A DNA stretch of 39,213 nucleotides from a virus. Location of the stretch: IMG/VR virus record IMGVR_UViG_3300046794_000200, positions 1 through 39,213 of that record; one strand, written 5' to 3'. Positions 32-39,213 of this stretch are shown here, in pieces; within the stretch, counting starts at the first letter, position 1, and the number at the start of each line of letters is the position of its first letter. The position numbers and the translations under genes are program-made. The notes below the pieces were generated by a model that was given only the letters and a program-made list of their open reading frames with translations, did not search any database and was not told the origin of the DNA.

Positions 32-106
32 GGGAGGTTAGCTCAGGGGTAGAGCACTGCATTCACACTGCAGGGGTCGCAAGTTCGAAACTTGCACTTC
101 CCACCA
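32..106 (+). tRNA. tRNA-Val(CAC), integration site
   Basis: A full cloverleaf is visible. The acceptor GGGAGGT pairs with ACTTCCC, followed by discriminator A and an encoded CCA (104-106). The D arm is GCTC/GAGC, the anticodon stem CTGCA/TGCAG, and the loop TTCACAC gives anticodon CAC (64-66), i.e. valine. The T arm contains GTTCGAA. The gene is intact at this end of the prophage. From base 59 in the anticodon stem onward it is identical to 39115-39213, so its 3' half is the phage-supplied copy that restored the tRNA after integration. Confidence 0.95.
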
Positions 107-157
107 GAATAAAGCTGAGAAATCAGTGACTTAGAGAAGGCCAGGGCGATATGCTAC
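59..157. repeat. attL: left copy of a direct repeat of at least 99 bp
   Basis: Bases 59-157 match 39115-39213 exactly, up to the last base of the window. Base 58 (t) and base 39114 (g) differ, so the repeat starts at 59. It covers the tRNA-Val anticodon stem to its 3' end and runs on toward the tRNA terminator. The left copy joins an intact tRNA; the right copy lacks the 5' half. This fits site-specific integration by the tyrosine integrase at 38016-39011. The right copy is cut by the window end, so the true repeat may be longer. Confidence 0.93.
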
Positions 158-229: not shown

Positions 230-967
230 TCAAGCATTTATACCGATTGCACCAGCAGGCGTAGGCACAACAACTGGAGTCGTCGGCGCCACATGGCGCA
301 GCGGTCGAACGCGCACCGCAGGCGCCACGTCCATCGGCAGGAACAGAGGCTCGTCGCGCTGCGGCCCTTGCCGCTTCACAAACCCGATATCGATCCCGCC
401 TGACGCCGGCCGCACGCTCAAGCGCAGTGGCGCCGGCGAAGCGTCGGTTTCGGAGGCGAGCGGCCGCATGATGAAGAACAGCGTCTCGCCCTGCTGGGCG
501 GCCAGGTGCAGGCGGCGTAGGCTGTCGGCGCGGATGGGTTGCTGGCGCGCGCTGGTCTTCGACGTTTGCCCGGGCCAGAACAGCAGGGCGCCGCAACTGC
601 CGCTGCGCAGCACCTGCTCGGCGGCCCACAAGGCGTCAGCGGAGCGCTCGGCGCGCAACCAGATGGCCGAGGCAGGAGGGATGCCCAGCGCGGCCAGCGA
701 CAGCGCCTGGGGCACGTGCGGAGGCGTCAGGAGCACCACGCTGCGGTCGGCCACGGCCTTCAGCGCCGGCGCAAGGAGCCGCATCTCGCCCACGCCCGGC
801 TGCTGCACCAGCAGGTCGACCAGCGTGCCCACCGGCCAGCCGCCGCCCGGGAGCTGGTTCGACAGGGTCGGGTGCCCGGTATCGATGCGCCGTGTGCGAC
901 TGCGCGCCAGCTGGGAAGCTCGCCAGAGGGACGGGTGCAGGGCTTCGAGTGGCGGGGCAGTGGTCAT
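230..967 (-). CDS. imuA: ImuA-like (RecA/SulA-like) SOS mutagenesis-associated protein
   Basis: A 245-residue protein of the ImuA family, the RecA-fold accessory protein that normally works with ImuB and DnaE2 in translesion synthesis. Family-typical stretches are LHPSLWRASQL near the start, TGHPTLSNQLPGGGWPVGTL, LLQQP-like LVQQPGVGEMRLLAPAL, GSCGALLFWPGQ, and LRRLHLAAQQGETLFF. The ATG at 967 is preceded by GGAGAG. A longer reading would run through the LexA box and is unlikely. The gene lies inside the prophage, between attL and the lysis genes. No imuB or dnaE2 is present, so it is an orphan and probably an SOS-induced accessory (moron) gene. Its C-terminal tail (VVVPTPAGAIGINA) is not a part I recognise. 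Function alone is uncertain: mutagenesis helper, RecA modulator, or cell-division effect. Confidence 0.85.
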   Translation of the reverse strand: MTTAPPLEALHPSLWRASQLARSRTRRIDTGHPTLSNQLPGGGWPVGTLVDLLVQQPGVGEMRLLAPALKAVADRSVVLLTPPHVPQALSLAALGIPPASAIWLRAERSADALWAAEQVLRSGSCGALLFWPGQTSKTSARQQPIRADSLRRLHLAAQQGETLFFIMRPLASETDASPAPLRLSVRPASGGIDIGFVKRQGPQRDEPLFLPMDVAPAVRVRPLRHVAPTTPVVVPTPAGAIGINA

Positions 968-982
968 GTTTCTCTCCAAAAA

Positions 983-1002
983 TACTGTATGTGTGTACAG
1001 TA
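983..1002. promoter_or_regulatory. LexA (SOS) operator upstream of imuA
   Basis: CTGTATGTGTGTACAG at 985-1000, flanked by TA on both sides, fits the gammaproteobacterial/betaproteobacterial SOS-box pattern CTGT-N8-ACAG with perfect outer half-sites. It sits 16 bp upstream of the imuA ATG, where it would cover the promoter. Host LexA should therefore repress imuA in the lysogen and release it on DNA damage. Confidence 0.88.
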
Positions 1003-1311: not shown

Positions 1312-1799
1312 CACGGCACCATATCGTTTTCATGCAGGAAGCGTTGGCATGCTCGACCAGTTGCTAGATCTTCCTCAACCAGCAGTTTCAGCGCGACAAG
1401 ATCTCGCTCAACGTCTGGTCGAACCAGCCGGCCGGGTGGATTGGCGCTGTCGCTGCTGGCGGCGCCTTCGGCTTGGGCGGGGGCGGGAGGTCCGTTACCA
1501 CATACGCCGGCGCCGACGTACACGCGCTGAGTAACAATGCGCTCGCGAACAGGCTGAAGCTCTTCATGCTTTTTCTCCGTGATGGTTGCGTTGCTCACGA
1601 CCTGGCGCACTGCCTCGGTCGCGTTCGTTGTGGTGCGCGCCTGCAGCGCCTTAGCATCCGCCAGGGCGCGCTCGGCGATGGCCGCCGCATGGCCGGCGTC
1701 GTACCGCGCGGTGCCGTAGTGTTGGATGCCGAACCAGCCGCCGAACACCAGCCCGGCGACAAGGATGCAGCCGATCAGCAGGCGGTCGAGGGCATTCAT
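1311..1799 (-). CDS. Rz-like inner-membrane spanin subunit
   Basis: A 162-residue protein with one N-terminal membrane anchor (LLIGCILVAGLVFGGWFGIQ, about residues 7-26) followed by a long hydrophilic, Ala-rich helical region with few prolines, then a C-terminal part with VYVGAGVCGNG. This layout fits i-spanins, which link inner and outer membrane in the last step of lysis. The ATG at 1799 overlaps the endolysin stop (ATGA). Holin, endolysin and Rz are consecutive. I found no Rz1 with a lipobox nested in or after it. Confidence 0.75.
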   Translation of the reverse strand: MNALDRLLIGCILVAGLVFGGWFGIQHYGTARYDAGHAAAIAERALADAKALQARTTTNATEAVRQVVSNATITEKKHEELQPVRERIVTQRVYVGAGVCGNGPPAPAQAEGAASSDSANPPGRLVRPDVERDLVALKLLVEEDLATGRACQRFLHENDMVP

Positions 1800-2260
1800 T
1801 TCGCCCCCGGGGTCAGCTGGTCGTAAAACTGCAGATTCCGCGCACGGATTGTGTCCTGCAGCTTCTTCGCATAGTCGGGATCGGTCGCATAGCCGGCCTT
1901 CTGCAAAGCGGCGGCCCAGCCCATGCCGGTCGTCTCCTTGAAGCAGGCGGCGTAACGCGGGTTCGCCAGCAGGAACCGGCCGTGGTCGACCATGGATTCA
2001 GCGTAACTGGCGTAGGCGCGGAACTTGGCCGTCAGGTGGACGTTCTGGTCGGCTAGGTGCTCGGTGGTGGCGAAGCCGACGGTAGGGCCGGTCCAGCTCT
2101 TGTCAGCCTTGATGCCGAACAGGTTGTTGCCGAGGGCGCGCGAGCCCCACGACGATTCGAGCGCGGCCTGGGCCAGGGTGATCGATGCCGGGATCCCGGT
2201 CTTGCGCTGGCAGTCCTGTGCGGACTGGGCCAGCATTCCAATGAAAGCGCTGGGCGGCAT
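1796..2260 (-). CDS. Endolysin, glucosaminidase (FlgJ/GH73-like)
   Basis: A 154-residue peptidoglycan hydrolase. The stretch ITLAQAALESSWG carries the family catalytic glutamate, followed by NLFGIK and the later YASYAESMVDHGRFL and YATDPDYAKKL motifs typical of flagellar-type N-acetylglucosaminidases. There is no signal peptide, so release through the holin next door is expected. The ATG at 2260 overlaps the holin stop by one base (TGATG); a GTG three bases earlier (2263) is an alternative with a 4-base overlap. Length fits a single-domain lysin. Confidence 0.88.
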   Translation of the reverse strand: MPPSAFIGMLAQSAQDCQRKTGIPASITLAQAALESSWGSRALGNNLFGIKADKSWTGPTVGFATTEHLADQNVHLTAKFRAYASYAESMVDHGRFLLANPRYAACFKETTGMGWAAALQKAGYATDPDYAKKLQDTIRARNLQFYDQLTPGAK

Positions 2261-2640
2261 CACAGCATCCCCTTCACGTCCGTGGCGATCTCATCGATAC
2301 CGGCATCCTTCTTCTTGTCCAGGTACTTGAACAGCGCGCGCACCAGAGCCCAGCCGGGCAGGCCGCAAGCGAAAGCGAAGGCCAGCATGGCGACCATGCC
2401 GAACGGATCCTCGACCCAGTGCTGGAAGCCCAGCCAGCGCACGAGCGCCGAGCCGCCGCCGATCGAGCTGACCAAGGTGCAAATCAGGGCCACGCGCCAT
2501 TCCTGATCGGTCTTGGGCTTCGTCAGTGCCATGACGACGAAGGCGGCCAGGCCGGCGCCGATCGCGCCCATACCGGCCAGGCCGCCGATGATCTTCCAGC
2601 CTGCTACGCCGGCGGCGGTGCCGGAAATTGGTTCACTCAT
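2260..2640 (-). CDS. Holin-like membrane protein
   Basis: A 126-residue protein with about three hydrophobic segments: AAGVAGWKIIGGLAGMGAIG onward (about 8-40), ALICTLVSSIGGGSALV (about 52-70), and FGMVAMLAFAFACGLPGWAL (about 80-100), ending in a charged tail (YLDKKKDAGIDEIATDV). Size, membrane layout, charged C-terminus and position directly before the endolysin indicate a holin. The start MSEPISG at 2640 was chosen because GGAACG lies at a suitable distance; an upstream ATG would sit beside the terminator hairpin. Confidence 0.75.
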   Translation of the reverse strand: MSEPISGTAAGVAGWKIIGGLAGMGAIGAGLAAFVVMALTKPKTDQEWRVALICTLVSSIGGGSALVRWLGFQHWVEDPFGMVAMLAFAFACGLPGWALVRALFKYLDKKKDAGIDEIATDVKGML

Positions 2641-27296: not shown

Positions 27297-27410
27297 CTAA
27301 TCGTTCGCTGCCCGGTTGAGGGCGAGCATCTTGAAATCGCCCTTAAAGGCGCTTGCGCATACCGCCCTTTGCCATCGAGGCGCGGCTGGGCAGGCGCTGC
27401 AATTGGCCAT
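27297..27410 (-). CDS. Tiny Cys-containing ORF
   Basis: A 37-residue frame, MANCSACPAAPRWQRAVCAS followed by AFKGDFKMLALNRAAND. CxxC plus one more Cys. The ribosome site of the next gene begins directly after its stop, which supports it, but it overlaps the 91-residue ORF (27343-27618) by 68 bases in another frame. Confidence 0.35.
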   Translation of the reverse strand: MANCSACPAAPRWQRAVCASAFKGDFKMLALNRAAND

Positions 27411-27618
27411 GGCATGGCCATTCCGCCTTGCGCGCGGGGAAGCTACGATTCGCGCCGTCACGCTCGATCTTTTCCAGCGTGGCCGCACGGATAAATGGGG
27501 CGATTCGGCTGCCGATACGGGCGCAGTGTTTGCGGATCGTGCTTTGCTCGACCTCGTTGACTGGAACCTTCAGCGGCGGGAGATCCCGGATCAGGCTTGC
27601 GTGGGTGATGGTGCTCAT
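27343..27618 (-). CDS. Small hypothetical early protein
   Basis: A 91-residue protein, MSTITHASLIRDLPPLKVPV, then NEVEQSTIRKHCARIGSRIA and PFIRAATLEKIERDG. The last 30 residues (SFPARKAEWPCHGQLQRLPS...) look unstructured and overlap a tiny ORF in another frame. AGGAGA before the ATG. It is the second gene of the early-right operon, after the Cro-like gene; between them (27619-27720) I see only a short palindrome GGGCAAATGCCC. Confidence 0.6.
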   Translation of the reverse strand: MSTITHASLIRDLPPLKVPVNEVEQSTIRKHCARIGSRIAPFIRAATLEKIERDGANRSFPARKAEWPCHGQLQRLPSRASMAKGGMRKRL

Positions 27619-27720: not shown

Positions 27721-27972
27721 TTATGCCGGGGTTGCTCGTCGTCGGTTCGTAGGGTTCGTGGAGCGGATGAATGCCCAGTCGACTTGCGGGCACAGTTCTT
27801 CGCACAGCAGGATGCGGTTGCTCTCTCGCTCGAGGTTGACCGCGAGCTTCTCCGGACAAGGCCGGTTCCCGTAACCTACCTGGCGCAGGTAGTTGAACGA
27901 CGTGCCACAGCGGGCCGCGAAGGAATCCCGGGCTTCCACCGGGATGGCGTTCAGGTAGTCGATGAGCTTCAT
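27721..27972 (-). CDS. Cro-like repressor (YdaS-type HTH)
   Basis: An 83-residue protein, MKLIDYLNAIPVEARDSFAA, then RCGTSFNYLRQVGYGNRPCP and EKLAVNLERES, a helix-turn-helix of the Cro/YdaS style (short N-terminal helix, 'aFA..cG.s..YLrqv..G.r..p..a..iE..s'), ending VDWAFIRSTNPTNRRR. Divergent from the S24 repressor with an 82-base operator region between them. CGGAG before the ATG. As first gene of the early operon it should act as Cro. Confidence 0.82.
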   Translation of the reverse strand: MKLIDYLNAIPVEARDSFAARCGTSFNYLRQVGYGNRPCPEKLAVNLERESNRILLCEELCPQVDWAFIRSTNPTNRRRATPA

Positions 27973-27979
27973 GGCTCCG

Positions 27980-28008
27980 ACTGTATCAATTGATAAAGTC
28001 AAAGTCAA
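27980..28008 (-). promoter_or_regulatory. Early promoter PR-like (drives cro-like gene)
   Basis: On the minus strand TTGACT (28008-28003), 17-base spacer, TACAGT (27985-27980). The 16-base operator TGTATCAATTGATAAA (27982-27997) lies across spacer and -10 box, so repressor binding would block it. Confidence 0.75.
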
Positions 28009-28035
28009 GCAGATGCTAATTTATCAAATGCTAAA
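27982..28035. promoter_or_regulatory. Repressor operators between repressor and cro-like genes
   Basis: O1 at 27982-27997 contains the perfect 12-base palindrome TATCAATTGATA (27984-27995). A weaker copy, TTTATCAAATGCTAAA, is at 28020-28035 and matches six of eight bases in its second half. A third close copy lies at the plus-strand early promoter (30086-30101). Confidence 0.65.
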
Positions 28036-28054
28036 AGTGCGGGATAATTTCCGA

Positions 28055-28783
28055 ATGAACATGTATCAACATCGGAGAGAGCGCCTGCTGGCCTTGATCG
28101 ACGCCGAGTATGGTGGCGAGAGGGTGCGGTTTTGCGATAGGTCGGGCCTGAGTGAGTCGCGCGTGGCCCAGCTGCTGTCAACGACATACCGCGACGGCAC
28201 AGCCTTCACGGAGAAGACGGCCCGTAAGATAGAGGCGGCGGTGGGTCTGCCTCCGCTTTACTTTGACCAAGGGGTAATCGAAAACCAGCCACAGCCCCAG
28301 GCCCAGCAGCCCGCAGTTCCGCGTGGCTTTATGCGCGTTGAAGCGGTGGACGTCGATGATCCCCGGCTGACCATCATCCCGAAAGTACGTCTTCGGCTTA
28401 CGGCCGGGCTCAGTGGTTTCGAGGTTGAGCCTGAGCCGTATGACGGCGGGTCCACCACAGTCCCGACCGATTGGATCGAGCGGCACGGCTACTACCGGGA
28501 CAAGCTGATCGCGATCACGGTGCGCGGCGAGAGCATGGAGCCGACGTTCTATGAGGGCGACCTGGTCGTCATCAACACGGCCGACACCGAGCCCGTAGCG
28601 GGCGCCGTGTACGCAGTGAATTACGAAGGTGAGCCGAGCATCAAGCGCCTGGCGCGCGATGCCGGCCGCTGGTGGCTGGTGTCGGACAACATCGACCAGC
28701 GCAGGTATTACCGGCAGACCTTTCAGAGCGATACGTCGCAGATTATCGGTCGGGTAGTGCGGAAGGAAACGGAAAGGTTCTGA
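28055..28783 (+). CDS. CI-like repressor, HTH plus S24/LexA-type peptidase
   Basis: A 242-residue prophage repressor. Residues about 10-60 form the HTH (VRFCDRSGLSESRVAQLLST). Residues about 77-90 are a Gln/Pro linker. The C-terminal S24 domain holds the likely cleavage site Ala117-Gly118 (RLTAGLSG), nucleophile Ser160 in RGESMEPTF, and Lys197 in PSIKRLAR. RecA-stimulated self-cleavage would induce the prophage. The start MNMYQHRRERLL was chosen since earlier codons run through the operators; a second ATG at 28061 is possible. Confidence 0.9.
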   Translation: MNMYQHRRERLLALIDAEYGGERVRFCDRSGLSESRVAQLLSTTYRDGTAFTEKTARKIEAAVGLPPLYFDQGVIENQPQPQAQQPAVPRGFMRVEAVDVDDPRLTIIPKVRLRLTAGLSGFEVEPEPYDGGSTTVPTDWIERHGYYRDKLIAITVRGESMEPTFYEGDLVVINTADTEPVAGAVYAVNYEGEPSIKRLARDAGRWWLVSDNIDQRRYYRQTFQSDTSQIIGRVVRKETERF

Positions 28784-31617: not shown

Positions 31618-32526
31618 ATGAACGCAATCGTCGATCCGAGCAACTACGATCGGACCAAATACATAGGTGGAAGCGACATCGCCGCCATTCTGGGCGTCAG
31701 CCCCTGGCGCAACGTCGTCGACCTTTGGCTGGACAAGATCACGCCGCGCGCCGAGAACGGCCAGAACGCCGGCGCCAAGCGCCGCGGTTCCCGTATGGAG
31801 CCGTACATCCTCGACATGATCCGCGAGGAGCACGGCCTGGAGATTGTGACCGCGAACCAGCGTTACATCGACACCGAGCTGCCCTTCATGGCCGCCGAAA
31901 TCGACTTCGAATACCGCGACCTGGAGACGGGTGCGATCGAGAACGGCGAGATCAAGACCGTGCACCCGTTCAAGGCGAAGGAGTGGGGCGAGAACGGTAC
32001 CGACCAGTTGCCGCTTCACTACGTCGCCCAGGTTCAGCACGGGCTGGGCGTGCGCTCGGCGCGCCGCTGCCGCGTGTTTGCCCTGATCGGCGACGACCTG
32101 AAGCCCTATGTCGTGGACCGCGACGACGAGCTGATTGAGGCCATGCGTGCGCGCGCCGTCGAGTTCTGGACAAAACACGTGCTGGCGAAGGTGCAGCCGC
32201 CGCTCGACTACGAGCACAAAGACATCATCGAGACGCTGAAGCGACTCTACCCCGGCACCGACGGCACGATCATCGATGCCAACCCGATGCACGAACACTG
32301 GCGCGCAGTCATCGGCACTGCTGCCGAGATGCGCGATCACTACGAGAACATCCTCGCCGGCGCCAAGGCCCACCTGCTCGCCGAGATGGGCAACGCAAGC
32401 GCAATCAAGTTCCATGACGGCATGGCGTTCACCCGCAAGGTCATCAAGAAGAAGCCCTACACCGTCGAATACGCCGCGCAGAGCTACGTCGACTTCCGCC
32501 TTTCCAAACTGAAGGAGAACGCATAA
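31618..32526 (+). CDS. YqaJ-type viral recombinase exonuclease
   Basis: A 302-residue PD-(D/E)xK nuclease. RTKYIGGSDIAAILGVSPW is the family start motif; KRRGSRMEPYILDMI holds the conserved Glu; MAAEIDFEYRD and NGEIKTVHPF supply the catalytic D and ExK; VAQVQHGLGV the Gln motif. It would resect double-stranded ends to give 3' tails for the RecT annealase encoded next, forming a Red-like recombination pair. Confidence 0.92.
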   Translation: MNAIVDPSNYDRTKYIGGSDIAAILGVSPWRNVVDLWLDKITPRAENGQNAGAKRRGSRMEPYILDMIREEHGLEIVTANQRYIDTELPFMAAEIDFEYRDLETGAIENGEIKTVHPFKAKEWGENGTDQLPLHYVAQVQHGLGVRSARRCRVFALIGDDLKPYVVDRDDELIEAMRARAVEFWTKHVLAKVQPPLDYEHKDIIETLKRLYPGTDGTIIDANPMHEHWRAVIGTAAEMRDHYENILAGAKAHLLAEMGNASAIKFHDGMAFTRKVIKKKPYTVEYAAQSYVDFRLSKLKENA

Positions 32527-33576
32527 ATGAGCACGTCCCAACTAAAAGCCATCGCGACCGGCCAAGCCCCCAAAACTGAGAAGCCGAAGGATCTGGCGCA
32601 GCTGATGGCCAGTCCGGCCGTACAGTCCCAGCTCAAGGTCGCGCTGCCTCGCCACATGACCGCCGAGCGTATGGCGCGCATCGCCACCACCGAGATGCGC
32701 AAGGTGCCGAAGTTGGCCCAGTGCGATCCGATGTCGTTCCTCGGCGCCGTTATCCAGTGCGCGCAGTTGGGCCTGGAGCCGGGCAATGCCATGGGTCACG
32801 CCTACATCCTGCCGTTCGACAAACGCCAGAAGGTGAACGGCACCTGGCAGACCGTCTCCACCGAGGCGCAGGTGATTATCGGCTACCGCGGGATGATCGA
32901 CCTTGCGCGCCGCAGCGGCCAGATCGTGAGCATCGAGGCGCGCGCCGTCTACGACGGCGACGAGTTCGATTGTTCGCTGGGCCTGGAATCGAAGCTGACC
33001 CACACGCCTGACTGGCAGAACCCGAACCGCTCGCAGCCGGACAAGCTCCGCTTCGTGTATGCGGTAGCGAAGTTGAAGGACGGTGGCATCCAGTTTGACG
33101 TGATGTCGCGTGCCGAGGTCGACGGCATCCGCGCGCGCAGCAAGTCGGCCGACAACGGCCCCTGGGTGACCGACTACGCGGCCATGGCTTTGAAGACGGT
33201 TGTGCGCCGGCTGTTCAAGTTCCTGCCGGTGTCGATCGAGATCCAGCAGGCGGTGAGCCTGGACGAGCAGGCCGAGGCCGGCGTCAGCCAGCAGAACAGC
33301 GCGATCATCGACGGCAACTTCACCGAGGTGGATGCACCGCTCGAGCTGGACGCCGAGCCAGCCGCGCCAGCGGCGGCCAAGGCTGAGAAGCAGGGCGGCC
33401 AGCAGCAGGGCGAAAGCGATGCCTACGACGCTATGTTCCAGCGCATCACCAAGTGCAACGACATCGAAGCGCTCGACATCATGGCCGACGAGATCCGCGA
33501 GGTCGCGAACGACGCCGACGCGCTGAAGCTGACCGAGCTGTACAAGCAGCGCCGCGTCGAGCTGGTCGGAGACTGA
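32527..33576 (+). CDS. recT: RecT single-strand annealing protein
   Basis: A 349-residue RecT family protein. ALPRHMTAERMARIATTEMR, CDPMSFLGAVIQCAQLGLEP, AMGHAYILPF, and QVIIGYRGMIDLARRSGQIV are hallmark motifs; WVTDYAAMALKTVVRRLFKF closes the core. The C-terminal 90 residues are an Ala/Gln-rich linker and a charged helix (ALDIMADEIREVANDADALK). The ATG follows the YqaJ stop directly. It anneals strands made by the exonuclease. Confidence 0.93.
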   Translation: MSTSQLKAIATGQAPKTEKPKDLAQLMASPAVQSQLKVALPRHMTAERMARIATTEMRKVPKLAQCDPMSFLGAVIQCAQLGLEPGNAMGHAYILPFDKRQKVNGTWQTVSTEAQVIIGYRGMIDLARRSGQIVSIEARAVYDGDEFDCSLGLESKLTHTPDWQNPNRSQPDKLRFVYAVAKLKDGGIQFDVMSRAEVDGIRARSKSADNGPWVTDYAAMALKTVVRRLFKFLPVSIEIQQAVSLDEQAEAGVSQQNSAIIDGNFTEVDAPLELDAEPAAPAAAKAEKQGGQQQGESDAYDAMFQRITKCNDIEALDIMADEIREVANDADALKLTELYKQRRVELVGD

Positions 33577-36138: not shown

Positions 36139-36501
36139 ATGGACACCGATATCCTGCACGAAGCGAAGCGCCTGCGCCTGCTGGCCGCGGCGCTCGAGCT
36201 GCAGCACTACACCAGCACTGCGGCGAACATGGTTCCGATCCCTGGCGGCGACCAGGTGATCGCGATTGGCACGCCGGGGGACGTCGCGCGGCTTCTCGCT
36301 AATCAGGCCAAGGCGGCTCCCTTGGAACAGATGGATGATCGAGATGTCAGTCAGACCTCCTGCGATCACGATTCCTATGATCTAGATGAGATGTGCGGCA
36401 CCTGCGACGGGCAAGGCGAGGTCACGACCATGGGTGGGCCGATGGACGACGAGCCGCCAATTAAGAAGTGCGGGGACTGCGGCGGAACGGGGAAGGCATG
36501 A
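36139..36501 (+). CDS. Hypothetical protein with C-terminal zinc-ribbon motif
   Basis: A 120-residue protein, MDTDILHEAKRLRLLAAALE, a middle region with VIAIGTPGDVARLLANQAKA, and a C-terminal DnaJ-like cysteine region MCGTCDGQGEV...KKCGDCGGTGKA with two CxxCxGxG units. AAAGGAAA before the ATG. Its stop overlaps the start of the PP-loop gene (ATGA), so the two may act together, perhaps as zinc-binding partner. Confidence 0.68.
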   Translation: MDTDILHEAKRLRLLAAALELQHYTSTAANMVPIPGGDQVIAIGTPGDVARLLANQAKAAPLEQMDDRDVSQTSCDHDSYDLDEMCGTCDGQGEVTTMGGPMDDEPPIKKCGDCGGTGKA

Positions 36502-37319
36502 AACACATCGCTTTACTGTCAGGCGGTCATTCGTCCGGTAAGGTCGCAATCGAAGTGGTCCGGCGCTTCGGCAAAGAAAACGTGATTCTGCTTAATCACG
36601 ATCTGCCGGCGCTGGTCGAAGCGGAAGACATCAAGCGCTTTAAGCGCGAGGTTGCAGCCTACGTTGGCTTGCCCATCACCTATGTGAATCATCCGGATCC
36701 CGAAGCAAACCAGTTTTCGGTGTGCATTCAAGCCCAGGCGTTCAAGGTGGACTCCGGGCCAGAGCTGTGTACCGCTAGGCTAAAGACCGAGCCGTTCATG
36801 CGCTATTTGGCGGCACAGTTCCCCGACAAGGACTGCATCATCTATTACGGCTATGACGCCAACGAGATGCACCGCGTCCAGCGACGGATTGGCGTTCTCG
36901 GTCCGTTGGGCTACAAGACGGATTACCCGCTTGCACTCTGGGGCGCAGAAAGTCGGACGATTTTCAGCACGATGGAAGTCGGGATTGCTCCGCCAATGGG
37001 ATACAGCCAGTTCAAGCACGCCAACTGCATCGGTTGCCTAAAGGCGGGCTGGCAGCACTGGTACATCGTCTACTGCACCCGCCCCGATATTTGGGCGCTC
37101 GGGAAGCAGGCCGAGGACATCATCGGCTACGCGATCCACCACGACGAGAGTGGCCCGGTGTACATGGAGGATATGGAAGAGAAGTTTGCAGCGATGCGTT
37201 GTGCCGGCGTCCCGCAGACCGAGCATATCCCGCATCAGAAATTCTGGGCGAAGGCCAACAAGATCGTGAAGATATCTGCCCAGCAACAGTCAATATTACC
37301 TTGCGAGTGCTCGACATGA
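36498..37319 (+). CDS. PP-loop ATPase of PAPS-reductase / DndC-like type
   Basis: A 273-residue protein. MKHIALLSGGHSSGKVAIEV carries a modified PP-loop (SGGHSSG instead of SGGxDS), followed by ENVILLNHDLPALVEAEDIK. ELCTARLKTEPFMRYL and CIGCLKAGWQHW are cysteine motifs typical of the phage PAPS-reductase-like family, in which ATP activates a substrate for sulfur or related chemistry. GGGGAAGG before the ATG. The reaction is unknown; nucleotide or tRNA/DNA modification is possible. AT-richer than the recombination genes. Confidence 0.78.
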   Translation: MKHIALLSGGHSSGKVAIEVVRRFGKENVILLNHDLPALVEAEDIKRFKREVAAYVGLPITYVNHPDPEANQFSVCIQAQAFKVDSGPELCTARLKTEPFMRYLAAQFPDKDCIIYYGYDANEMHRVQRRIGVLGPLGYKTDYPLALWGAESRTIFSTMEVGIAPPMGYSQFKHANCIGCLKAGWQHWYIVYCTRPDIWALGKQAEDIIGYAIHHDESGPVYMEDMEEKFAAMRCAGVPQTEHIPHQKFWAKANKIVKISAQQQSILPCECST

Positions 37320-37854: not shown

Positions 37855-38130
37855 ATGGGTGACTTGAACAGGCAGCAAATCTGCGCCGCGCTGGGCGTGA
37901 GCGAATCAACAATAAGGCGGCTCGAACAGGCTGGTCTACCATATACCCCGGTGGGTGTGCGGTCGAAGCGGTATGACCTGGCCGAGTGCAAGAAGTGGTT
38001 AAAGGAGAATCAGCAGTGTCAACATGGGAAGACAAGGACGGTCGCAGGCACGTTGGAGTCATGGTCGAAGGGAAGCGCGTTCACCGAATCCTGCCGAAGG
38101 GCGCATCTGCGAGTGATGCCAAGCGCGTAG
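37855..38130 (+). CDS. AlpA/excisionase-like HTH protein overlapping integrase
   Basis: A 91-residue protein. MGDLNRQQICAALGVSESTI, RRLEQAGLPYTPVG and KRYDLAECKKWLKENQQ form a MerR/AlpA-type winged HTH typical of excisionases. The HTH is complete by about residue 53; the remaining 38 residues lie wholly inside the integrase gene in another frame (115-base overlap). GGGGAA before the ATG. It should direct excision or regulate integrase. Confidence 0.75.
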   Translation: MGDLNRQQICAALGVSESTIRRLEQAGLPYTPVGVRSKRYDLAECKKWLKENQQCQHGKTRTVAGTLESWSKGSAFTESCRRAHLRVMPSA

Positions 38131-39011
38131 AAGCTGAAATCCGCGCCGCCGTAGCACGGGCGCCCAAAACCGTGAACATCCCTGGCGATCCACCGATGAT
38201 CGCTATCCTGAACCTCTTCGTAGAGCATTCGAAAAAGCTCCGCAGCTCGGAAACGTCGGAATACCACGCCAGGCGCCTGGGGCCGTGGGCAGCCAAGTAC
38301 AAGGCCAGCCAAGCGCAAGAGTTCGCTGACCACGTCATCAAGGACATGAGCCAGCTGGTGGAGCACCCGAAGACGAAGGAGATGAAGCCGGCGTACGCGC
38401 CGGCGACCATCAACCGGTCGCTGGCGTGTGCGAAGAAGGGTATGGACATCGCCTGGCGGCAGCGCCTGATCCCGGAAAATTATGGTCTGCGGATCAAGCT
38501 GGTGAGCGTCAACAATAAGCGCGAGGTCTTCCTGACTGTCGACCAAGTGCGCCAGATCGCCCAACACTGCTCCGAGCAGGCCCAGGCGGCGATCTGGTTC
38601 GCGCTGCTCACCGGCGCGCGCCGCGGCGAGATCTTCAAGATTCGGACCGAGCACATCGGCACCGATACGATCACCCTGCCGGCCAGCCACACGAAGACTA
38701 ACCGCATGCGCGTCATCCCGATCATCCCGGCCCTGCGGCCCTGGCTGAAGCACCTGCCGCTGACGATCACTGTCGACGGCGTGAAGTCGGCGTGGCGCCG
38801 GGCGCGGGTGACTGCCGGTATGGACCACGTGAACTTCCACGACCTGCGGCACTCGTGCGCGAGTATCATGCTGGGTCTGGGCGTCGACCTCTACACGATC
38901 AGCAAGATCCTGGGCCACAGCACGATCCAGACTACGCAGCGATATTCGCACCTGCAGGTTGATGCGCAGCGCGCGGCGCTGGAAAAGCTGGGCGCGCTGG
39001 CCAGCAAATAG
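38016..39011 (+). CDS. int: Tyrosine site-specific integrase
   Basis: A 331-residue integrase. Catalytic residues are visible: Arg in LTGARRGEI, Lys in SHTKTNRMR, HDLRH, the His in ILGHSTIQ, and Tyr (about 310) in TTQRYSHL. The N-terminal part has a core-binding SAM-like domain (YAPATINRSLACAKKGMDIA). The start is GTG at 38016, with AGGAG eight bases upstream. It lies next to attR and would recombine attP with tRNA-Val. Confidence 0.93.
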   Translation: MSTWEDKDGRRHVGVMVEGKRVHRILPKGASASDAKRVEAEIRAAVARAPKTVNIPGDPPMIAILNLFVEHSKKLRSSETSEYHARRLGPWAAKYKASQAQEFADHVIKDMSQLVEHPKTKEMKPAYAPATINRSLACAKKGMDIAWRQRLIPENYGLRIKLVSVNNKREVFLTVDQVRQIAQHCSEQAQAAIWFALLTGARRGEIFKIRTEHIGTDTITLPASHTKTNRMRVIPIIPALRPWLKHLPLTITVDGVKSAWRRARVTAGMDHVNFHDLRHSCASIMLGLGVDLYTISKILGHSTIQTTQRYSHLQVDAQRAALEKLGALASK

Positions 39012-39114: not shown

Positions 39115-39213
39115 GCATTCACACTGCAGGGGTCGCAAGTTCGAAACTTGCACTTCCCACCAGAATAAAGCTGAGAAATCAGTGACTTAGAGAAGGCCAG
39201 GGCGATATGCTAC
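39115..39213. repeat. attR: right copy of the direct repeat (cut by window end)
   Basis: Identical to 59-157. It holds only the 3' half of tRNA-Val (from the anticodon stem) and is the original host copy displaced by integration. The window ends inside or at the end of the repeat. 39035-39114 between int and the repeat holds no gene. Confidence 0.93.

Follow-up and report, generated by a model that had tools for sequence, protein, structure and literature searches.

A LexA-boxed orphan imuA at the integrase edge of a lineage of temperate phages from Massilia-related soil bacteria

The DNA analysed, here called the window, is a 39,213-base IMG/VR record that is a temperate prophage by gene content, and the relatives of the record suggest that its host belongs to soil bacteria related to Massilia. 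Just inside attL, with its stop codon 73 bp from the repeat, the prophage carries a gene for ImuA preceded by a predicted LexA (SOS) box, and imuB is absent from the entire 39-kb window. An earlier note on this DNA had described the gene as an orphan imuA under LexA control, located within a prophage next to attL, and that description is borne out by the profile match, the box, the missing imuB and the 99-nt att repeats. The orphan gene is, as far as the compared contigs indicate, a trait of a whole lineage of related phages and not a single case. That it is a phage moron, whose SOS-induced ImuA acts with the translesion complex formed by host ImuB and DnaE2, is a proposition to which we give an even chance.

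The features of the window are listed in Table 1. The pair of 99-nt repeats frames the whole element, which also contains terminase, portal and capsid (major head protein) genes. The phage repressor has a Peptidase_S24 domain with predicted RecA-triggered self-cleavage, and the prophage is therefore predicted to be SOS-inducible. In the predicted circular form of the phage the integrase adjoins imuA across attP, an arrangement that is seen contiguously in a related viral contig (L001). Two further features were recorded in the window. A PAPS-reductase-like protein (36468-37319; phrog_424, 83 bits) is a common phage accessory gene, and a 93-nt tRNA-Ala(TGC) called by ARAGORN in mid-phage near the repressor gene (27396-27488) exceeds the usual length of a tRNA-Ala and is probably a false call.

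Table 1. Features of the 39,213-base window, in order of position.
Feature	Positions	Strand	Remarks
tRNA-Val(CAC), attachment gene	32..106	+	ARAGORN; complete tRNA
attL core, 99-nt direct repeat	59..157		3' half of tRNA-Val plus downstream sequence
imuA coding sequence, orphan	230..967	-	245 aa; ATG at 967, stop at 230; NF033429
imuA codons 132-141	545..574	-	Insertion of roughly 10 residues, aligned with the RecA L1 loop
imuA codons 100-101	665..670	-	Host-conserved Gln-Leu, mostly Ser-Ala/Val in the phage clade
LexA (SOS) box upstream of imuA, predicted	983..1002	-	35 nt from box start to ATG
Endolysin (glucosaminidase)	1796..2263	-	PF01832, 120 bits; upstream of imuA, co-directional
Small protein in holin position, putative holin	2260..2640	-	phrog_1024, function unknown; holin inferred
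CI/LexA-type phage repressor with Peptidase_S24 domain	27962..28783	+	PF00717, 66.5 bits; CI-like repressor PHROG
RecE-like exonuclease and RecT-like annealing protein	31618..33576	+	phrog_434, phrog_148; the phage's own recombination genes
Tyrosine integrase	37986..39011	+	phrog_1, E 2e-48
attR core	39115..39213		Same 99 nt, identical; runs to record end

The imuA product matched the NCBIfam model NF033429 (ImuA, translesion DNA synthesis-associated) over profile positions 1-181 of 181 with 205 bits (E 8e-61), against a curated cut-off of 150 bits. An AlphaFold2 model of the protein (pLDDT 83.5) has a RecA-like core, and RecA was its top PDB fold match (E 1.6e-10, TM about 0.6). The Walker A motif (GxxxxGK[ST]) was found in no ImuA examined, including the window protein. 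The proteobacterial ImuA1 group is described as lacking Walker motifs (PMC12926913), and the modelled RecA-like core without Walker A assigns the window protein to the ImuA1 type. ImuA and SulA share a distant RecA-like ancestry, and inhibition of division during lysis had been among the roles proposed earlier. A SulA-like protein that holds back cell division during induction or lysis would be in keeping with a match to the PDB SulA structure (1OFU, E 5.5e-4) and with the distant homology detected by the SulA models. These models gave 25-28 bits only, however, with TIGR00623 at 28 bits against a SulA cut-off of 150, while the protein lies above the cut-off of its own family and RecA is the better fold match. 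Because of this shortfall in score, division inhibition is disfavoured; a SulA-like function was rejected, and we consider it very improbable.

The box, TACTGTATGTGTGTACAGTA, agrees with the consensus TACTGTATATATATACAGTA at 17 of 20 positions. Its earlier description as a perfect SOS box is accurate for the CTGT-N8-ACAG core and overstated for the whole consensus. It is the sole site in the window with three or fewer mismatches to the consensus (0.00 expected by shuffling); the bare core is weaker evidence, with 1 found against 0.45 expected. The box came from the consensus scan, and a pattern search of the window for the exact variant SOS motif gave no match. Every complete viral or MAG orphan imuA copy has a LexA box (55 of 55), starting 30-36 nt before the ATG. 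The predicted box thus places the phage imuA among genes expected to be under LexA control.

Two scans of viral contigs yielded 53 imuA loci. None of the 53 has imuB, about 35 of them having 0.9 kb or more of sequence downstream where it could be seen, and the contigs may be fragments. With the same query, imuB was directly downstream of imuA at 77 of 80 genome loci. In one of the three exceptions, a Massilia MAG locus (L037), a phage holin homologue lies upstream; the second is on a contig assigned to Xanthobacteraceae (L073), and the third sits at a contig edge (L076). Among extra copies fetched, nine orphan imuA without imuB were found in eight genomes, one of them on a plasmid, and these genomes also had another imuA copy. 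Neither the window imuA nor its relatives share an operon or element with imuB (and dnaE2). Two gammaproteobacterial ImuA alignments used as profiles recovered only the same betaproteobacterial clade and a few weak or imuB-linked loci, so that orphan ImuA in phages of other proteobacteria is unsupported by these scans.

Among about 50 viral contigs belonging to the clade, 28 have an integrase no farther than about 1.5 kb from the imuA 3' end; the distance is mostly less than 300 bp, and the two genes sometimes overlap tail to tail. In 16 further viral contigs, including the window, the end of the provirus or contig falls within about 600 bp of the imuA 3' end, and several of these, the window among them, carry the integrase at the other extremity of the record. 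What lies upstream of imuA differs, with endolysins in one set and a DNA-repair exonuclease PHROG family in 11. The suggestion in the earlier note that imuA sits next to lysis genes therefore applies to some relatives, which have an endolysin upstream, and fails for those with the exonuclease; a single universal lysis-gene context was ruled out. What the orphan copies have in common is the integrase/att edge and not a lysis-gene neighbourhood.

Several other arrangements of imuA on mobile DNA were encountered. On a Massilia putida plasmid (L205; NZ_CP019036.1, 73171-73890), an orphan imuA that groups with the phage clade is the second gene of a two-gene unit, and a LexA box, TACTGTACATTCATACAGTA, precedes the first gene. 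Two viral contigs of 80 kb (L131) and 279 kb (L132) carry a Burkholderia-type orphan imuA beside an ATP-dependent DNA ligase; both match a terminase model, ParA/ParB are annotated beside imuA in the former, and they are possibly large phage-plasmids. In L133 (9951-12951), imuA is followed directly by a DnaE2-like ORF (738 aa, PHP and polymerase domain), imuB is missing, and a gene resembling RusA is nearby. In L245 (3002-7786), an imuA-imuB pair comes directly after Mu-type tail genes (Gp48 family), possibly a tail region that either adjoins or includes a complete imuAB.

In a maximum-likelihood tree, one branch (bootstrap/SH-aLRT 99/96) parts the orphan from the imuAB-linked copies. On the orphan side of this first tree were every viral copy of the first scan and two orphan MAG copies, and on the other side every imuAB-linked copy. 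In an enlarged tree, 49 viral copies were placed together with 9 orphan copies from genomes and 1 from a plasmid (SH-aLRT 99). Three more orphans (L131-L133) grouped with Burkholderia-type ImuA, so that imuA was captured more than once. For the ImuA core, the median pairwise dN/dS was 0.19 in the phage clade and 0.24 in host copies, and 68 alignment columns are at least 95% conserved in phage clade and host ImuA alike. These values indicate that the phage-clade imuA is under purifying selection and, taken together, that the constraints on it are the same as on a working mutasome ImuA.

Ownership of the gene was addressed at the attachment site. In viral contig L001, imuA, the att core and the integrase follow one another in one continuous phage-type stretch; the att core is 92% identical over 100 nt to that of the window, and the integrase is 96% identical. 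This order is the arrangement expected around attP, which argues that imuA is a phage gene. An imuA at the empty attachment site of a related strain had been named as the finding that would make it a host gene. At the tRNA-Val loci of 16 Massilia-group genomes, which are of related species and not of the same strain, imuA was absent within about 1.5 kb. On the basis of the continuous order in L001 and the imuA-free loci, a host-gene origin was ruled out, and the comparison assigns the window imuA to the phage. A neutral passenger, or a host gene caught at the prophage edge, could be imagined from the position next to the attachment site and from degraded imuA fragments at two loci (L036 and L134). 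This explanation is contradicted by the dN/dS of the core, the LexA boxes in all 55 complete copies and the single clade spread over many different phages, as well as by the contiguity in L001 and the imuA-free tRNA-Val sites, and we find it scarcely credible.

The hosts were searched for a resident system, as had been proposed earlier. An imuA match was present in 60 of 62 genomes of the Massilia-type genus, and dnaE2 in 11 of 11 genomes tested at 67-76% identity, a set that includes the eight genomes with orphan imuA. These matches indicate that hosts of such prophages keep their own imuAB and dnaE2.

During this survey the host imuA was also found interrupted. In Massilia sp. Root133 (L185/L186; G016:C35, about 275155-310065), a Tn7-like transposon lies inside host imuA at about codon 129. 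It encodes TnsA, a Mu-type transposase, TniB/AAA and TnsD/TniQ, has TGT...ACA ends and is flanked by a 5-bp duplication, GCTGC. Its cargo comprises a CBASS-like pair of CD-NTase and patatin, and an imuA-imuB of its own that possibly substitutes for the broken gene. Related transposon right ends abut imuA fragments at about codons 129 and 176 in L187/L188 (G019), L201 (G021) and L202 (G002:C23), and L187 also has a transposon left end abutting an imuA fragment. From these junctions, imuA looks like a recurrent target of a Tn7-like element in Massilia.

The phage clade differs from host ImuA at three places. The first is the changed pair at codons 100-101, of which codon 100 aligns with RecA Asn113 (position counted by hand in the alignment), where RecA crosslinks to the UmuC RecA-NT motif (PMC6511836). 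The segment aligned with the RecA-NT docking region of RecA is otherwise among the most conserved (W103, D111, W114-Q118, L120, C125-L128), and the ImuB docking region appears to be kept in the phage clade except for this rim. The second is the L1-like insertion, present in 34 of 58 phage-clade ImuA and in 0-1% of host ImuA. The third is a C-terminal tail motif found in 68 of 79 host copies and in no phage copy. This last difference carries little weight because the DNA for the host tail also encodes the start of ImuB, with an overlap of about 70 nt, and because the tail is not conserved in Gammaproteobacteria without imuA/imuB overlap; tail dN/dS is relaxed in phage and host groups both. For the first two reasons, the idea that tail loss means loss of ImuB binding was dropped.

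The same differences bear on whether the phage protein is a dominant-negative decoy, which would occupy host ImuB or displace host ImuA and so lower damage-induced mutagenesis, protecting prophage and host genomes. Rim changes and an L1-like insert in an otherwise ImuA-like protein are what such a decoy might show, and the missing tail could be added to them were it not for the imuB overlap in hosts, the unconserved tail where the genes do not overlap and the relaxed dN/dS in both groups. We regard a decoy as improbable.

Action with the host ImuB-DnaE2 complex is the economical reading because the core and most of the docking segment are kept, co-induction is suggested by the box, and the hosts supply ImuB and DnaE2. 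In mycobacteria, the RecA-NT motif of ImuB binds ImuA and is needed for damage-induced mutagenesis (PMC11791113; also PMC6511836). Oxalobacteraceae phages would have acquired the ImuA of the main clade in a single event and retained the gene, with a LexA-controlled promoter of its own, at their genome edge, where the last late genes lie on one side of it and attP/integrase on the other. Once LexA has been inactivated by DNA damage, phage ImuA would be made in the lysogen together with host imuAB and dnaE2 products. The RecA-like surface of the phage protein would most likely dock on the RecA-NT motif of host ImuB, and the docked protein may then join or take over the ImuB-DnaE2 translesion complex. 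Lysogen and phage DNA would thereby be helped past lesions at the price of mutations. We infer expression of phage ImuA, its binding to ImuB and its effect on mutation or survival. Two points speak against this scheme. The host imuA already has an equivalent LexA box, so that a plain extra copy would bring no obvious benefit, and the altered codons 100-101 together with the L1-like loop could point to a different partner or to a dominant-negative function. A further version is plausible, with a little less than an even chance: a specialised phage ImuA, a viral regulatory subunit of the DnaE2-type translesion machinery captured more than once and kept at the integrase/att edge, that swaps into or redirects the host ImuB-DnaE2 mutasome (or RecA) during SOS.

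The main rival to action with the host complex is damping of RecA. Phage ImuA would mainly bind or cap RecA filaments and damp their co-protease or recombination activity, which would tune the timing of CI/LexA cleavage, make prophage induction later or more limited, or shield phage DNA from RecA while the phage uses its RecE/RecT. It ranks as the main rival because Myxococcus ImuA is reported to inhibit RecA-mediated activity (Sheng 2021, as cited in PMC12288472), the S24-type repressor is probably RecA-dependent and the phage has RecE/RecT genes of its own. The RecA-core fold of ImuA, the clade-specific changes at the Asn113-aligned site and the L1 loop, and the LexA-controlled DinI-like RecA-binding genes of Gifsy-type prophages (PMC3121763) point the same way. 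The Myxococcus protein, however, belongs to the ATP-binding ImuA3 group, while the proteobacterial ImuA1, as characterised in PMC12926913, lacks Walker motifs, as here; the conservation pattern fits a mutasome ImuA, and RecA binding did not appear in the literature found on ImuA1. RecA damping is thus possible, although on the doubtful side. The altered rim at codons 100-101 accords with mutasome action, with RecA damping and with a dominant-negative decoy alike.

The closest known relative of the phage protein is the ImuA1 of proteobacterial chromosomal imuA-imuB-dnaE2 operons, with which it shares the full 181-position profile, the RecA-like core without Walker A, a LexA box at a similar distance and the 68 near-invariant residues. 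The phage copy differs in lacking imuB and dnaE2, in its location on a phage and in forming a separate clade with changed codons 100-101, a 10-aa L1-like insert (34 of 58) and no host-type C-terminal tail. The HumD protein of phage P1 is likewise a lone mutasome subunit, carried by a temperate phage that lacks the partner polymerase, and it facilitates SOS mutagenesis (McLenigan 1999, as cited in PMC4713147). By its location and the missing imuB, the window imuA is an orphan of the same kind. HumD is UmuD'-like and serves Pol V (UmuC), whereas ImuA is a RecA homologue, belongs to another mutasome and would need ImuB-DnaE2. The dinI-antirepressor operon of Gifsy, tum of phage 186 and antC of N15 are also prophage genes that lie outside the immunity region and are controlled by host LexA. 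These genes encode antirepressors or DinI, which acts on RecA filaments; the window phage, in contrast, has a self-cleaving-type repressor, and its ImuA is unrelated in sequence. Transfer of imuA by mobile elements is known from ICEs and plasmids (ICEPni2, conjugative plasmids) as the full imuABC cassette (PMC7466150, PMC12574031), whereas the window phage carries imuA alone.

Both ImuA and LexA-controlled phage genes are kinds already known, and the orphan phage imuA is apparently undescribed: no earlier description was found in the open-access literature on imuA with prophage or bacteriophage. No PHROG profile matched the window ImuA, and no relative of imuA was found at the threshold used among 50,697 phage records of INPHARED, so that current phage annotation would miss such genes. 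These data suggest that the phages probably adjust the damage response or the mutation machinery of their hosts. If they do so by supplying and adapting one subunit of the DnaE2 mutasome, lysogeny itself would alter the timing of SOS, or the mutation induced by damage, across a large group of soil bacteria, and the natural ImuA variants would let the still poorly understood role of ImuA itself be probed.
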